A DNA stretch of 55,655 nt, from the NCBI RefSeq assembly GCF_025352645.1, contig NZ_JANXSO010000036.1:1-55655 (forward strand), read 5' to 3'. The stretch's first letter is position 1, and every line of letters starts with the position of its first letter. This DNA is from Iodobacter sp. GTDB taxonomy: Bacteria; Pseudomonadota; Gammaproteobacteria; Burkholderiales; Chitinibacteraceae. Of this stretch, positions 27,911 to 55,655 are shown one piece after another. Made by a program: the position numbers and the translations under genes. Under the pieces are notes generated by a model that saw only the letters and a program-made list of their open reading frames with translations, did no database searches and had not been told where the DNA came from.

Positions 27911-29758
27911 TTATATCGCCCAGCGCTCACGAATGCTGGCTTCAATCCCTGCAGCATCTAAGCCACACTCTGCCCATTGCACCTGTTGCTCTGCGTGCTC
28001 GATATAACGATCAGGAATCCCCAATTGCAAGCATGGCTTACAGCTAAGCTGCGCCATCATGCTCTCTAGCACTGCCGAGCCTGCTCCACCCATAATCGAG
28101 CCTTCTTCAACCGTGACCAGATAATCATGGCTCGCTGCCAACTCAAGAATTAACGCTGCATCAATGGGTTTCACAAAGCGCATATTCACCACAGTAGCGT
28201 CTAGCGCCTCGCCTGCCTCTAAAGCCGCAGCAAGCACCGTACCGAACGCGAGGATCGCTACTTTACTGCCACGGCGGCGAACGTCTGCACTGCCCATGGC
28301 AATAGCCGTCATGCTGCTTTGCACCTCAACACCTGGGCCAGTGCCACGAGGGTAGCGCACCGCACTTGGGCCATCGTGCAAAAACGCCGTATATAGCATT
28401 TGGCGGCATTCGTTTTCGTCGCTAGGCGTCAGCACCACCATATTGGGGATACAACGCAAAAAGGAGATATCAAATGATCCTGCATGAGTTGGGCCATCTG
28501 CCCCTACCTGCCCTGCGCGGTCAATCGCAAACACCACGGGTAGATTTTGAATCGCTACATCGTGAATCAACTGATCATAAGCGCGCTGCAAGAAAGTTGA
28601 ATAGATTGCCACCACGGGCTTAAAGCCCTCACAAGCCAAACCAGCGGCAAAGGTCACCGCGTGTTGCTCGGCAATACCCACATCAAAGTAACGCTCAGGG
28701 TATTCTTGCTCAAAGCGCACTAAGCCCGAACCTTCGCGCATGGCAGGCGTGATGCCAAGCAGGCGTTGGTCTATTTTTGCCATATCACACAGCCAATCAC
28801 CAAACACCTTGGTGTAGCTGACTTTGGTGGCTTTAGCCCCCAACATGCCGTCTTCTTTTGCAAATGGGGTCACTGCGTGGTATTTCACCGGATCAGCAAC
28901 CGCTTTTTTATAGCCCTCGCCCTTACGTGTCACCACATGCAGAAACTGTGGGCCTTTTAGCTGCTTGATGTTCGCCAGTGTTGTAACCAGCGTATCTAAA
29001 TCATGGCCATCGATGGGGCCAATATAATTAAAGCCAAACTGCTCAAACATCGTACCCGGTGTCAGTAGACCTTTGACGTGTTCCTCACCTTTTTTGGCGA
29101 GTTCTTTTAAAGGCGGTACAACATCTAGCACACGGCCAGAAGCACTACGAATCCCGTTATAAAACTTACTAGAAAGCAATTTAGACAGGTAATTTGTCAG
29201 CGCACCGACATTCGGTGAGATCGACATTTCATTATCGTTCAGCACCACCAGTAGATTCACATCACGATCACCCGCATTATTGAGCGCTTCAAAAGCTTGA
29301 CCAGCGGTCATTGCACCATCACCAATCACGGCGATCGCATGGCGATCCTCACCTTTTAGCTTCGCCGCTTCAGCAAAACCTAAGGCAGCAGCAATCGAGG
29401 TACTGGAATGACCCACACCAAAGGTGTCGTATTCGCTTTCTTCGCGCTTAGGAAAAGCAGCCAAGCCGTGCTGTTTACGCATGGTATGCATACGCTGACG
29501 ACGACCGGTGAGAATTTTATGTGGATAACTTTGATGGCCAACATCCCAAACCAAACGGTCATACGGCGTGTTAAACACGTAGTGCAAGGCCACCGTCAGC
29601 TCAATAGCTCCTAAATTAGAAGCAAAATGTCCGCCCGTCTGGCTTACCGAATCTAGTAAACAATTGCGTAACTCGTTGGCTAATTGTGGCAGATCATCTC
29701 GGGCTAGCTTTTTTAGCTCGGCAGGACAGGCAACCGTGTCAAGTAAGGGATAACTCAT
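27911..29758 (-). CDS. dxs: 1-deoxy-D-xylulose-5-phosphate synthase
   Basis: This thiamine-diphosphate enzyme condenses pyruvate with glyceraldehyde-3-phosphate, the first step of the methylerythritol-phosphate route to isoprenoids. Length (about 615 residues) and motifs match Dxs: [26 protein letters not shown], the TPP/metal site GDGAMTAGQ (about 145) with [13 protein letters not shown], then [15 protein letters not shown] (about 412) in the central domain. I prefer the ATG at 29758 (MSYPLLD); an ATG at 29773 and a longer non-ATG frame also exist, and none has a strong Shine-Dalgarno. It is the last gene of the xseB-ispA-dxs operon. Confidence 0.95.
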
Positions 29759-29878
29759 CTCTAGCTTCTTCATATTTTTTATGCGTTCCACTGTAAAACC
29801 AGCCAGCAGACGCAATTTATGGGCTGCGGCAAGCTGTTCTTTGCGCGTTTGTTAAGCACAACGATTTAAGGGGTGCAA

Positions 29879-30772
29879 CTAACTAGAACGCTCCACAATA
29901 AAATCCGCCAGCATGATCAAGTAGCGTGCTTTCTCACCAAATGGTGCAATCGTTGCCAAGGCATCGGCCTTCAGTTCGGCAGCCTTCTCTTTTGCCGCAG
30001 CTAAGCCCAGCAAAGAAACATAGGTCGGTTTATTATTGGCCGCATCTTTACCTGCAGTTTTACCCAAGGTTGCCGAATCAGCTTCCTCATCCAAAATATC
30101 ATCAACCACTTGAAAAGCCAGCCCAATACAGCGCGCGTAGTGATCTAATCGGCGTCTATCCTCATCACTGATCGCTTCGCCACAATAAGACCCTAATAAC
30201 ACTGCGGCCCGAATCAAAGCACCGGTTTTTAAGCCGTGCATCCGTTCTAGCTCAGGCAAGCTCAAGGCTTGACCCACGCTGTAAAGATCAATCCCCTGCC
30301 CGCCGCACATGCCTAAGCTACCTGAGGCGCGGGCTAAGATATTCACCATCGTGAGTTGATCGCTCGCCGAATCGGCAAGGGTATACATAGAAAGCAGATC
30401 AAACGCCACAGTCTGCAGCGCATCCCCTGCCAATAAAGCCGATGCCTCGCCAAAAGCCACATGACAGGTAGGCTTGCCACGGCGTAACACATCGTTATCC
30501 ATCGCGGGCATATCATCATGCACTAGGGAGTAAGCGTGGATCAGCTCCACCGCTGCGCCCGCATATTGCAAGCGCTCTAGAGGTGCATTCACGACCACAC
30601 CAGCGGCAAACGCCAGTAATGGGCGAACGCGCTTGCCACCATCCAACACGCAATAACGCATGGCCTTATGCAGCTCTGCCGGTAGGACATCTTGTGCAGG
30701 TAAAACAGCCGCAAGGGTTTGTTCCATCTGAGACTGGACGCTTTGCATCCAGTGGTTAAATTCTAAAGTCAT
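29879..30772 (-). CDS. ispA: Farnesyl diphosphate synthase (polyprenyl synthetase)
   Basis: This 297-residue prenyltransferase elongates DMAPP and IPP to farnesyl diphosphate. Both aspartate-rich magnesium sites are present, DDMPAMD (about 86) and DDILDEE (about 221), along with GGKRVRP near residue 50 and GKTAGKD. Its ATG immediately follows the xseB stop codon with no spacer, implying translational coupling, and dxs begins about 120 bp downstream. Small xseB, ispA and dxs in this order are a classic proteobacterial operon. Confidence 0.95.
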   Translation of the reverse strand: MTLEFNHWMQSVQSQMEQTLAAVLPAQDVLPAELHKAMRYCVLDGGKRVRPLLAFAAGVVVNAPLERLQYAGAAVELIHAYSLVHDDMPAMDNDVLRRGKPTCHVAFGEASALLAGDALQTVAFDLLSMYTLADSASDQLTMVNILARASGSLGMCGGQGIDLYSVGQALSLPELERMHGLKTGALIRAAVLLGSYCGEAISDEDRRRLDHYARCIGLAFQVVDDILDEEADSATLGKTAGKDAANNKPTYVSLLGLAAAKEKAAELKADALATIAPFGEKARYLIMLADFIVERSS

Positions 30773-31003
30773 TTATGCATTATCCGCAGGGAAGGGCTTG
30801 AGTTCTGCGCCTTCAAGCACTCGAATACGTTGTTCTGCGTCTGCCAATCGGCTTTCGCAAAACTGCAGTAATTCTGTGCCGCGCTTGTAAGTAGTAAGAG
30901 CAGTTTCTAGCGGCAAATTGCCCGCTTCCATTTCAGCAATCAAGCTCTCCAACTCTTGGAGGCCTACTTCAAAGCTCTCGGGGGGTTTAGTTGCTTTCGG
31001 CAT
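30773..31003 (-). CDS. xseB: Exodeoxyribonuclease VII small subunit
   Basis: This 76-residue protein matches the small-subunit family: SFEVGLQELESLIAEMEAGNLPLE near the N-terminus, then LTTYKRGTELLQFCESRLADAE. It pairs with XseA, which is not in the window, to degrade single-stranded DNA. Its stop codon directly abuts the ispA start. Length fits the family's usual ~80 residues. Confidence 0.95.
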   Translation of the reverse strand: MPKATKPPESFEVGLQELESLIAEMEAGNLPLETALTTYKRGTELLQFCESRLADAEQRIRVLEGAELKPFPADNA

Positions 31004-31276
31004 ACGCTAACTTTCCCGAATAAAGTTGTAAACGATAGTCCTCAGGGACTACCCAGTCAATCTTGATAATTACGGTTATCTAAGCGCCACTACCGCCCAT
31101 CAAAAATAGGCGAGTTGCCTCTCATACCGCAATTTATAGCTAGCAGAGCAGGCAAACAGCTTAAATTCTTTCAACAGACTGAAATGAACTCTTACAATAG
31201 TCAATACAAACTGCGCCAATTTTACCTCAAAAATTATTTATAAAATATTCGAGTTAGAATAAAGCGCTATTTATTT

Positions 31277-32140
31277 ATGGTTATCTCAATGCGTATTGCC
31301 TATTTGATCCTTTGCCACGCCCATCCAGAACAATTAGGCAGGCTTTGCCAGCAACTTCAGCATCGTGATGCACGCATTTATATTCATGTGGATGGCAATA
31401 CCGCGGATCAAACCGTGCAGGCCATGCACGCCAATGTGCCTGATGGGGCTCAGTTTATTCATCGGCAAGCTTGCCGCTGGGGTGGTTTTTCATTGGTCAG
31501 TGCCAGCCTTGAGCTTATTAGGGCCGCACTGAAAGATGGTTGTGATTATTTAGTTTTGCTTTCTGCTCAAGATTTTCCACTTAAAACGCATGAGCAGATT
31601 GTGGCAAAACTCAGCGGGCACGCAGGTTTTATTGAGTTTCGCCGCCAACCCGATCCCCATTTTGATATCCGTTACCGCTATCAAAGCTATCATCCTGAGC
31701 GGCTTAATGGCCGTTTAGCTGGCAAATTATTACAAAAAATACAGCGGCCTTTAAACCGACTCGGCTTATTCAAGCGGCCATTACCCCCGCCATTAAAGGC
31801 GATTTACTCGGGCTCGCAATGGTGGTGCTTATCAGCAAACGCCTGCCAAACACTGCTTGATTATTGCGAAATTTATCCTGAGTTAATTCGCTTTTTTCGC
31901 CACACCTTGGTGCCCGATGAGATGTTTGTGCAAACCGTGTTAATGCACACGCCATTGGCCGATGTGCTGATTAATGATTCTTTGCACTATTTAGAATGGA
32001 AAACAGGCGCTTGGTCACCGCGTATTTTTGATCTCAAGGATCTGCCTTGCTTACAAAACAGCTCGGCGCTTTTCGCTAGAAAATTCTCTGTCGATGGCGA
32101 GTTAAGCAAGCAATTAAGCCAGTATTTAAGCCCTATATAA
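31277..32140 (+). CDS. GT14-like glycosyltransferase (core-2/I-branching family)
   Basis: This 287-residue protein has the beta-1,6-N-acetylglucosaminyltransferase-like fold: AYLILCHAHPEQL at the N-terminus, IYIHVDG, LVLLSAQDFPL, SGSQWWCLS (about 176) and the PDEMFVQTVL motif (about 215). In eukaryotes this fold transfers GlcNAc or xylose to branch glycans; bacterial members usually serve surface polysaccharide or lipopolysaccharide synthesis. No signal peptide or membrane helix. ATGs at 31277 and 31289 are both plausible. It precedes the GlmS-like gene by 94 bp on the same strand, suggesting joint function. Acceptor and donor are unknown. Confidence 0.82.
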   Translation: MVISMRIAYLILCHAHPEQLGRLCQQLQHRDARIYIHVDGNTADQTVQAMHANVPDGAQFIHRQACRWGGFSLVSASLELIRAALKDGCDYLVLLSAQDFPLKTHEQIVAKLSGHAGFIEFRRQPDPHFDIRYRYQSYHPERLNGRLAGKLLQKIQRPLNRLGLFKRPLPPPLKAIYSGSQWWCLSANACQTLLDYCEIYPELIRFFRHTLVPDEMFVQTVLMHTPLADVLINDSLHYLEWKTGAWSPRIFDLKDLPCLQNSSALFARKFSVDGELSKQLSQYLSPI

Positions 32141-32234: not shown

Positions 32235-34016
32235 ATGGGTGCTTTGATTGGAGTGATTGCCCAGGACAATGTGCTAAAAAACATCAACCAGCACCTCAGC
32301 CCCCTTATCGAGCAAGGTTATTGCAGCGCAACCTTGCTGCGGGAGCAGAGCACACCCCTTGCCTGCCCTATTCTCACCCTGCACTTACACTTAAATGATT
32401 TAAGCGCAAAACGCAGCTTGATCCGGCTAGATTGGGACAAGCCCAATAGCACAAGCATCGCTACCTGCCGCGAAACACTTTCAGTCTGCTGCCGTGGCCT
32501 GATTGAAAATACCGAAGAGCTACAAGACAGGCTCGCCATTTTGGGCTATCTGCACGATAAACCCAGCACGGCACAACTTGCCGCAGATCTCATCCATTGG
32601 CATTACCGTACCCAACATGATTTACTGCAAGCCGTGCATTTAGCCGCGAGTGAAATCATCGGGGTCTTTGCATTAGGCGTAGTTGCTAGTGATGATCCTG
32701 AGCACATCGTTTGCACCTCCAAGCATATCCCGCTGTTTATAGCCCAAGGTAAAAACACGGCAGGGTTTAGCGATCAAGCACAAGCATTGCAAAGCATTGC
32801 TCCTGAAATAGTGCGCTTAGAGTTTGGTGATACCGCTAGGCTTAGTAGCCATGACTGCCGTATTTTGAATCAAGAGGGAAGCCCTTGCCAAAGAGTATGT
32901 GATGAGGTTCAACAGGCCCAAATAAAGTTACACGGCTTTCATCACTATATGCAAAAAGAAATCAATGAACAGGCGGCTATTTTTGCCGACATTCTTGACC
33001 ACACCCGCTCTGATGCCAACCTAGCCCAGCTACTTGATGGCGATGCGGCCAGTATTCTTTGCGATGTAGAAGGCGTTACCTTGCTAGCCAGTGGCAGTAG
33101 CTACCACGCCTCCCTCCTTGCGCGTTACTGGTTTGAATCTTTGGCTGGCCTACCCTGCTCGGTGGAATTGGCCAGCGAATATCGCTACCGAGAGGCCGTG
33201 CAGCACCACAATACGCTGATCATTGCGATATCTCAGTCTGGTGAAACCGCCGACACCATTGCTGCACTTAAATATGCACAAAGCCAAGATCATAAGCACA
33301 CCCTTGCAATATCAAACGCCTCCCCCAGTACCCTGATGCAATTAGCCCGCTTTCAGTTTTTTTTAGCCGCTGGCCCAGAAATTGGCGTGACCTCCACCAA
33401 AACATTCAGCACCCAGCTGCTCGCTTTGTTTCGGCTTGCTCTGAGTTTTGGAAAATTACGCGGCCATCTTACCCCCGCCTCTGAAGCCAGTGCGATTGAT
33501 GATCTGCAAAGACTACCCCGTGCCGCTAGCGATTTATTCTCCATCACCCCACAAATACAAGAATGGGCACATAGAATATATAAGAGTAAGCAGCTGTTTT
33601 TTGTGGGCCGCCATCTTTATTACCCCCTTGCACAGGAAGCGGCGCTAAAGATGCAAGAAGTGGCCTATATTCATTCTTTTGGCTTTCCTGCTGGCGAGCT
33701 AATCCACGGCCCACTAACCATGGTAAACAAAGACTTACCCGTCATTGCCTGTTTACCTTGGAACCGCTTAACTGAAAAACTACTGGCTAATTTACAAGAA
33801 GTACGTGCGCGCGGTGGCGAATTATTTATCTTATCCGATACCGGATTAGCCTCGGCGGATCACTTTAATGTGATTTGTATGCCGCATAATTTGCACGACT
33901 TAACCCCTATTCTCTACGGCATAGCCTTACAAACTCTTGCATATGAAACTGCAATACTGCAAGACAATGAAATAGATTCACCAAGATTTTTAAGTAAATC
34001 AGTAACAAAAATATAA
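32235..34016 (+). CDS. GlmS paralogue with degenerate glutaminase and intact isomerase domains
   Basis: This 593-residue protein aligns end to end with glucosamine-6-phosphate synthase (609 residues in E. coli). The N-terminal half has lost the glutaminase residues: no nucleophile Cys after the initiator (it starts MGALIGVIAQ), no HTRWATHG arginine loop, CRGLIEN instead of HNGIIEN, and no TDTE aspartate. The C-terminal SIS domains keep GSSYHASLLARYWFESLAG (about 281), SQSGETADT (about 332), the ALK..E pair (E. coli K485/E488), GELIHGP (H504) and the terminal SKSV lysine (K603). Cys300 of the CGTS motif is Ser. I infer an isomerase that works without glutamine, or one altered in substrate. A functional glmS presumably lies elsewhere in the genome. 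Confidence 0.85.
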   Translation: MGALIGVIAQDNVLKNINQHLSPLIEQGYCSATLLREQSTPLACPILTLHLHLNDLSAKRSLIRLDWDKPNSTSIATCRETLSVCCRGLIENTEELQDRLAILGYLHDKPSTAQLAADLIHWHYRTQHDLLQAVHLAASEIIGVFALGVVASDDPEHIVCTSKHIPLFIAQGKNTAGFSDQAQALQSIAPEIVRLEFGDTARLSSHDCRILNQEGSPCQRVCDEVQQAQIKLHGFHHYMQKEINEQAAIFADILDHTRSDANLAQLLDGDAASILCDVEGVTLLASGSSYHASLLARYWFESLAGLPCSVELASEYRYREAVQHHNTLIIAISQSGETADTIAALKYAQSQDHKHTLAISNASPSTLMQLARFQFFLAAGPEIGVTSTKTFSTQLLALFRLALSFGKLRGHLTPASEASAIDDLQRLPRAASDLFSITPQIQEWAHRIYKSKQLFFVGRHLYYPLAQEAALKMQEVAYIHSFGFPAGELIHGPLTMVNKDLPVIACLPWNRLTEKLLANLQEVRARGGELFILSDTGLASADHFNVICMPHNLHDLTPILYGIALQTLAYETAILQDNEIDSPRFLSKSVTKI

Positions 34017-34174: not shown

Positions 34175-35830
34175 ATGAGAATGACCACGCAATTAAAATG
34201 GGTGAGTAGCCTAACTGTAACCGCCTTGGTTTTTCTTGCTGGCTGGATGACTTGGGAAACCAAAGCGCTAGCCCATGATTTTCAATTTAATCGCGATAGC
34301 CAAAATGCAGTGACTGCACTGAATAAAATTCGCAACACCATGTTGATTATTTCACGGCTAGATCCACTTGCAGATACCGCTGCCAAACAATTAAATAACG
34401 CAGAGCAAGCAGTCTTAGCGGCCCTCCCCAGCATTAAAAACCAACTTGCCAGCGCTGAACAAAAGAAACTAGATATAGCCCTTGCTGAGCATTGGAGCAA
34501 CTATCTCACCCAATTCAAAAGTGCCGTTAAAATTGCGGCAAACAGCCCACAAGACGCGTTAAGCATCCCAGAACAAATTTATAAAAATGATTTAGAGCCT
34601 ACTTTAACCACCATAAATCAATTAGAAACCGGCCTACAAAGCCAATCACAAGCCGCCAATCAAGCCATTGATGCCCACATGACTCAACTTTTACAGGCCG
34701 TGCTTCTCCCGCTGTTATTTAGTGCCTTACTGATCGTGGCCAGCCAATTGCATTTTGCCCGCAAACTTAAACAGCGTTTAAATGCCATGGCCATAGAAAC
34801 AGCAAGGCTAGAAACCGGTGATTTAACCGGAAGAATGGCAGAAACCCCAGATGAAATGGGCGAATTAGGCAGCGGGATTAATCGCTTTTTAAACCAACTG
34901 GAAATCACGCTACAAGAAGCACGCCAAGCCTCACAACTTTCCCGCGATGAAGCCAGCCACGTCACTCATCTGGCCAAAGCCAATCACGAAGGCGCTACGC
35001 TACAAACCGATCATTTGCTAGAAATTGGCTCAAGCAGCGTATTACTGCAAGACTCTATCAGCCATATTAGTCAGCAAGCAGTTCGCACCGCCAGTATTAG
35101 CCAGCAATCTTTACATAGCGTGCAAGCAGCCAATTCGGCAGGCCAAGATTCAATGCTCAAGCTAGAAGCGCTGACTTGCGATTTCAGCCAAATTGAAACC
35201 GCCATGCAGGCCCTAACCGGCGCAATCTGCCAAATCGTTAGCGTTGCAACTATGATTGAGGATATTGCAGGGCAAACCAATTTACTTGCCCTAAATGCCG
35301 CCATTGAAGCCGCCCGAGCAGGCGAGCATGGTCGTGGCTTTGCGGTAGTGGCAGATGAAGTACGTAAACTCTCACATCTAACCGCAGGCTCTACCCAAGA
35401 TATTCGCCGAATTCTTAAAGACACCCAAACCCGCAGCAAAGAAACACTGAATGCGATGCAATCTGCCGCATCTCGGGTAACAGAATGCCAGCAAGACAGC
35501 CATACCATTAGCCATGCTCTGGGCGAAATCAATCTAGCAGCCAGCCAAGTCAATAATATGATGGAAACGATTGCCAATGCGGTGGAGGAACAAAATAGCT
35601 CAAGCGAAGCCATTAACGAGCGCTTGCGAGATATTGGAGGCAATGCATTAGCAAGTAGCCAGCGCAGTGAGCAGATGCTCAGTGAAATGAACGAGCTCAC
35701 CCATGCGGCAAATCATCTAGATACACAGCTGGCTTTTTTTCAATTTCGCCGCCATGCACACAATAATAAAGATCATCGACGTATGATCAGTAAAACCCAA
35801 ACTCCGCATGGTTTACCTTTAGCTGCTTAA
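34175..35830 (+). CDS. Methyl-accepting chemotaxis protein
   Basis: This 551-residue chemoreceptor has a first membrane helix about 11-27, a helical periplasmic sensor region about 30-170 (4-helix-bundle-like), a second helix about 173-192, HAMP about 195-250, and the signalling domain whose tip reads [20 protein letters not shown] (about 366-385). It has a charged C-terminal tail without an obvious CheR-docking sequence. It follows the GlmS-like gene on the same strand, 158 bp apart, and is probably independently transcribed. A second receptor lies at 20.4-22.0 kb. Ligand unknown. Confidence 0.92.
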
Positions 35831-55052: not shown

Positions 55053-55655
55053 ATGCTCGAACGTATCAAGGCCGCACTCGATAGCCTCAGCAAATCAGAA
55101 CGAAAAGTGGCTGAATTAGTCATTGAGCAACCTAATTTGGTTGCTAATGCCCCCATCGCCCAAATTGCCGAGTTGGCACTGGTTTCACAGCCCACCGTGA
55201 TTCGCTTTTGTCGTTCACTCAACTGCTCTGGCCTGCAAGATTTTAAATTGCGGCTCACTCGCAGCTTGGTCTCTGGCGTGCCTTATGTGCACTCCATGGT
55301 CAGCCGCGATGACTCTGCACACGATCTAGCACGCAAATTATTTGATAACAATATTTCGCATCTGCTCCGTTGCCGTAATGAGCTAGACACCGATGTGTTG
55401 GAACGTGCAATTACCATTATGTCGAATGCCAAAAAGATCGAAGTCTATGGTCAGGGGCAATCCGGCGCAGTGGCCATTGATGCACAAAACAAGTTTTTCC
55501 GCTTGGGCGTACCTACCGTTTCCTATACCGATCCGCATATGCACGGCATGAGCGCATCGATGCTTGGGCCAGGAGATGCGGTGGTTGCCGTATCAAACTC
55601 AGGCCGCACTTTAGATTTACTGCGTTCAGTAGAAATTGCCCGCGATGCAGGAGCC
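55053..55655 (+). CDS. hexR: HexR-type transcriptional regulator (RpiR family), cut by the window edge
   Basis: The frame is open for 201 codons to the window end. The N-terminal RpiR-type helix-turn-helix includes MLERIKAALDSLSKSERKVAE then IAQIAELALVSQPTVIRFCRSL (about 35-57). A SIS sugar-phosphate-binding domain follows from about residue 125 (VYGQGQSGAVAIDAQNKF and SNSGRTLDLL). HexR proteins sense KDPG and repress zwf, edd and related genes. Its position after zwf-pgl and the two matching operators in the edd/zwf gap support the name. The C-terminus is outside the window. The ribosome-binding site is weak and lies beside a large hairpin. Confidence 0.9.
   Translation, partial: MLERIKAALDSLSKSERKVAELVIEQPNLVANAPIAQIAELALVSQPTVIRFCRSLNCSGLQDFKLRLTRSLVSGVPYVHSMVSRDDSAHDLARKLFDNNISHLLRCRNELDTDVLERAITIMSNAKKIEVYGQGQSGAVAIDAQNKFFRLGVPTVSYTDPHMHGMSASMLGPGDAVVAVSNSGRTLDLLRSVEIARDAGA

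Follow-up and report, generated by a model that had tools for sequence, protein, structure and literature searches.

The window analysed here is a stretch of 55,655 nucleotides from Iodobacter, a genus placed by NCBI in the Chitinibacteraceae; the source genome comprises 4.39 Mb in 181 contigs. The window carries a gene for a second GlmS-like protein, designated P0001, with the following features in and around it.

27911..31006, minus strand: dxs-like (27911-29815), ispA-like (29879-30772) and xseB-like (about 30782-31006) genes, named by inspection.
31277..32140, plus strand: Core-2/I-branching type glycosyltransferase (PF02485, 97.3 bits), directly upstream of P0001.
32235..34016, plus strand: glutaminase-dead GlmS paralogue P0001, 593 aa (TIGR01135, 461.2 bits; cut-off 418.05).
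32235..32939, plus strand: N-terminal domain of P0001 (residues 1-235), remnant of an Ntn-type glutaminase with Cys1, R73, N98 and D123 replaced (profile comparison, residue alignment).
32940..34013, plus strand: isomerase half of P0001, two SIS domains with substrate and catalytic residues kept (PF01380 in two stretches, 144.2 bits; residue alignment).
34175..35830, plus strand: methyl-accepting chemotaxis protein (MCP), downstream (family match).

Residues compared with GlmS are numbered as in the E. coli enzyme, counted with Cys1 as 1. The codes f1 (family) and g1, g11 and so on (genera) are labels of the search tool and not taxonomic names.

The frame of P0001 is intact and free of internal stops, as originally predicted. 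The open frame measures 598 aa versus 593 aa for the protein and begins only five codons 5′ of the ATG, so that no upstream start can bring back the MCGI motif; the N-terminus MGALIGVIAQ aligns straight onto MCGIVGAIAQ of the E. coli enzyme. The best solved match is 4amv, a glucosamine-fructose-6-phosphate aminotransferase (E 1.3e-101, residues 80-591). The TIGR01135 match lies above the curated equivalog cut-off, yet spans model positions 89-605 only; in a 60-genome phylum sample P0001 scored 460 bits over these positions, and the 62 other matches scored at least 719 bits over positions 1-607. P0001 aligns with GlmS along its whole length, as first proposed, with the same domain order, and its N-domain still matches the canonical one by profile. 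The predicted structure, from an alignment of P0001 and four loci only, has a mean pLDDT of 39.2, too low for the model to be used. Two MAG records carry copies 78% identical to P0001; no close copy was plasmid-borne, all 258 matching plasmid records being below 60% identity. A promoter and terminator scan gave counts close to the shuffled background.

The N-terminal half of P0001 is identical to E. coli GlmS at 53 of 225 aligned residues and carries the substitutions C1G, R26Q, R73D, H77P, N98R and D123T; W74 and G99 are retained. We take Cys1 to be the glutaminase nucleophile, and R73, N98 and D123 to be glutamine-binding and oxyanion residues, the Asn serving the oxyanion. The nucleophile Cys, the arginine of HTRWATHG and the aspartate of TDTE are missing, replaced by Gly, Asp and Thr respectively, as the original prediction held; its claim that the NG of HNGIIEN had gone is correct for the Asn and wrong for the Gly, which is still present (CRGLIEN). 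On Pfam GATase_7 the protein scores 19.0 bits, below the cut-off of 25; the canonical GlmS of the source genome reaches 67.2 bits on this model and 80.3 bits on GATase_6 (cut-off 27).

The C-terminal half is identical at 151 of 366 aligned residues and retains all twelve isomerase residues checked (G301, S303, S347, Q348, S349, T352, S401, K403, K485, E488, H504 and K603), which presumably have the roles assigned to them in E. coli GlmS (H504, E488, K485, K603 and others). Equivalents of the last-named four had been predicted, and so had the replacement of Cys300 by Ser (C300S). Other changes in this half are A602S and T302S, Ser at position 302 being also found in 15 of 33 canonical sequences.

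A search of 61 genomes turned up second GlmS-like copies in many members of the family. For 43 family genomes from 11 genera, a census made with three N-domain profiles placed subtype i in 18 genomes, subtype ii in nine and subtype iii in 14 (15 genes), and at least one glutaminase-dead GlmS in 33 of the 43. The census found none in genera g3 (four genomes), g5 (one) and g9 (three), and no intact one in G002 (C-terminal fragments only) and G004 (nothing), both of the same genus as P0001. Forty of the 42 full-length dead copies were inspected: Cys1, R26, N98 and D123 occur in 0/40, R73 is retained in nine and H77 in 0 to 4, depending on the alignment. Eleven isomerase residues (G301, S303, S347, Q348, S349, T352, K403, K485, E488, H504 and K603) are kept in 40/40, and S401 in 35, the five Ala exceptions all being of subtype iii from genus g11. 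All 33 canonical GlmS sequences keep Cys1 and every isomerase site listed for the dead copies. The glutaminase losses first noticed in P0001 are thus common to one sequence group, and no inspected member has the Cys1 that would speak for a sequencing or start-site error. One sequence, L030_G041, was sorted as dead by the start-codon rule, yet has Cys1 and groups with canonical GlmS.

Homology of the altered domain to the glutaminase is supported by profile comparison: 15 subtype i N-domains match 18 canonical ones at 99.9% probability over 229 columns, subtype ii matches subtype i at 99.9%, and the comparison for subtype iii gave 96.6%. The subtype i relative L051 clears the GATase_7 cut-off of 25 at 28.0 bits. 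Among columns invariant in canonical GlmS, the subtype of P0001 retains 8 of 64 in the N half versus 60 of 116 in the C half (Fisher p = 8e-8). Subtype i has Asp at the R73 position in 18/18 sequences and Arg at the N98 position in 17/18, and has gained conserved residues of its own in the N half, with R64, D66 and D180 invariant and R87 nearly so among 15 sequences.

The subtype i N-domain profile had no match at E 1e-48 in the 368 other genomes of a class draw. An order draw of 399 genomes gave seven matches above 280 bits, all within the family, the next scoring 161. This profile also matches canonical GlmS at lower scores, so that more divergent dead forms elsewhere would escape it; the subtype ii and iii profiles were searched within the family only. 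A literature search, with most subscription journals outside its reach, gave no description of a glutaminase-dead GlmS among the matches listed.

In a full-length tree a single branch divides the dead copies of all three subtypes from canonical GlmS, and a tree of the SIS half with order, class and phylum samples gives the same split with an SH-aLRT of 100. A single loss of the glutaminase therefore suffices; the date and exact root of the dead group are uncertain, since the trees are unrooted, quick and accompanied by long-branch warnings. Subtypes i and ii stand in divergent orientation beside xseB-, ispA- and dxs-like genes, the conserved site to which the flank of P0001 corresponds, and this common site speaks for inheritance in place. 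Subtype iii occupies other sites, where its neighbours are a photolyase-like gene, an MCP and an EamA-like transporter gene, or a pair of ABC permease genes (names by inspection). The canonical GlmS sequences of family f1 (L061 and other loci) are scattered in the SIS-half tree; replacement by transfer in some genera is possible.

Four Iodobacter dead-copy pairs with dS below 0.35 gave dN/dS values of 0.05-0.09 in the N half and 0.03-0.06 in the C half, the remaining Iodobacter pairs being left out for high or undefined dS. These values are similar to those of ten canonical glmS pairs (0.02-0.10 and 0.02-0.06); seven dead-copy pairs from other genera gave 0.07-0.31 in the N half and, where defined, 0.02-0.16 in the C half. 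P0001 is accordingly a real and constrained, family-specific, glutaminase-dead variant of GlmS. The view that it arose by selective loss rather than simple decay is sustained by the common losses, the kept isomerase residues, the low dN/dS (well under 1 in each half), and the predicted second, canonical glmS, which is present elsewhere in the genome (832 bits). A start-site error or recent pseudogene is ruled out by the short upstream frame, the census and dN/dS.

The PF02485 glycosyltransferase lies directly upstream of the dead gene in 7/7 intact loci of the same genus, in 7/7 g11 genomes and in G788 of g6; two g10 genomes have it upstream with two permease-like genes between. It was considered as an obligate partner and rejected: PF02485 occurs in 33 of the 43 genomes of the family, but genera g2 and g4 and five of six g6 genomes have dead GlmS without it, and g3, g5 and g9 show the reverse. 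Of 18 subtype i loci, 16 have an MCP match downstream on the same strand, within about 4.3 kb; the MCP gene adjoins the dead glmS in g1 and g7 and is 2 to 4.3 kb off in g8. There are many MCP genes, and the match is due in part to a shared signalling domain. Neither gene is an obligate partner, and the neighbours leave the function unsettled. At the far end of the window a HexR-like regulator gene with a SIS domain (55053-55655) runs off the contig; the rest of it may be the SIS stretch with which contig C14 starts. Its neighbourhood includes zwf-like and pgl genes and, on the opposite strand, genes resembling edd and eda; all of these but pgl were named by inspection.

Four g11 genomes (G034, G791, G792 and G793) depart from the pattern, with an orthologue at the same site that is shortened to 351-368 aa by loss of the entire N-domain. 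The changes S347A, Q348E, T352A, V399R, S401A and E488A occur in 4/4, the K603 position is gapped in one, and dN/dS among the four is 0.14-0.20. Loss of isomerase residues under such constraint suggests that this lineage puts the protein to a non-catalytic use, and these SIS-only orthologues (L085, L170, L171 and L172) are possible pseudoenzymes. Each of the genomes also holds a subtype iii copy, and those inspected (G034, G792 and G793) keep the isomerase set minus S401. Together with the two same-genus genomes without an intact copy, the g11 orthologues indicate that retained catalysis is not the sole use of the lineage. The glycosyltransferase gene of G004 is in two pieces; as a sign of joint loss this counts for less, since two-piece matches are also seen for dxs in G004 (L177) and for nadC in G002 (L060), and sequencing errors are possible there.

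Among known systems, P0001 resembles GlmS (TIGR01135; PDB 4amv, 1jxa) in full-length domain order, isomerase residues and the C-terminal tail PRxLxKSV, and is 40% identical to the canonical copy encoded elsewhere in its genome; unlike GlmS, it is without the glutaminase nucleophile, the glutamine-binding residues and the oxyanion Asn. Rhizobia possess, in addition to their housekeeping enzyme, a dedicated second GlmS called NodM; P0001 is likewise a second GlmS, but NodM retains its glutaminase. The FrlB-type fructoselysine 6-phosphate deglycase (NF008481) has a GlmS-like SIS fold, and P0001 scores only 18.8 bits against its cut-off of 430. NagB-II and GlmD (NF046059, NF041128; PDB 8eol) have the same kind of SIS domains and no active glutaminase, whereas P0001 keeps a remnant N-domain.

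Since the glutaminase residues were lost while the isomerase half was kept by selection, P0001 probably works without glutamine. Residues, grouping, gene order and selection are our grounds for what is most likely as to catalysis by P0001, its reaction and direction, and the role of its N-domain. On these grounds we lean, with modest confidence, towards an old family-specific paralogue that lost its glutaminase and retains a working hexose-6-phosphate site, either ammonia-linked or isomerase-only. Glutamine hydrolysis would have been lost, most simply once, in the paralogue group. P0001 would then open and bind fructose-6-phosphate, glucose-6-phosphate or glucosamine-6-phosphate through the equivalents of H504, E488, K485 and K603. 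In one form it would interconvert glucosamine-6-phosphate with fructose-6-phosphate and free ammonia; in the other, with no ammonia at the site, it would only isomerise sugar phosphates. The N-domain may survive as a lid of structural or regulatory use, its old glutamine pocket refilled by the Asp at the R73 position and the Arg at the N98 position. GlmS-type isomerisation without productive glutamine use has a precedent in human GFAT2, which converts Fru-6P to Glc-6P (PMC7948480); the same paper cites a Candida Gfa variant that keeps isomerase-only activity. Against an enzyme of this kind it may be said that evolution of the N half is quicker outside Iodobacter, with dN/dS reaching 0.31, and that the NagB (G000:C32, L106:4428-5174; TIGR00502, 278.7 bits, cut-off 236.9) and GlmS of this genome already cover both reaction directions. 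With both present, P0001 would be an addition, perhaps for a particular condition or polysaccharide branch.

The constrained, truncated orthologues without isomerase residues in 4/4 g11 genomes also fit a pseudoenzyme or regulator, in which P0001 would be a sugar-phosphate binder or a partner of canonical GlmS, serving as non-catalytic subunit or sensor. In the GlmS dimer a histidine from one subunit completes the active site of the other, so that mixed P0001/GlmS dimers are conceivable. The new conserved N-half residues of subtype i and the downstream MCP match point the same way; the MCP link may, however, be inherited gene order, and a mere binder would not need E488, K603 and H504, which are kept in every inspected copy. 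We regard such a role as possible but rather unlikely for P0001. A catabolic glucosamine-6-phosphate deaminase for chitin use, NagB-II- or GlmD-like, seems more doubtful still. SIS-only deaminases are related to P0001 in sequence, and chitin degraders are among the members of the family; but P0001 scores far under the deaminase cut-offs (NagB-II 104.6 bits against 430, GlmD 77.9 against 580), and the genome's own canonical GlmS outscores it with 135.3 and 98.8 respectively. The immediate neighbourhood showed no recognisable nag gene, and NagB supplies a separate deaminase already, PF01182 (the family common to NagB and Pgl) being found in 22 of 23 family genomes searched. That P0001 is a decaying, functionless duplicate would accord with the fragments in G002, the absence from G004 and the faster N half in some genera; open frames across 33 of the 43 genomes of the family, together with dN/dS well under 1, make it very improbable.

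Amino-sugar synthesis starts with GlmS, an enzyme that also serves as a model for how ammonia is channelled from one active site to another. The curated model TIGR01135 for glutamine-dependent GlmS passes P0001, a protein without the glutamine-using residues. A natural group in which one site of GlmS is lost and the other kept, with domain-less orthologues besides, offers material on the isomerase site without glutamine, and suits asking whether that site can take free ammonia. As a tentative and somewhat doubtful history, one family may have made a glutamine-independent hexosamine-phosphate enzyme from GlmS by a single glutaminase loss, with the pocket refilled and the domain put to new use as a lid or an allosteric element; one genus may then have shed both the domain and the isomerase chemistry, leaving a conserved sugar-phosphate-binding pseudoenzyme beside a glycosyltransferase.
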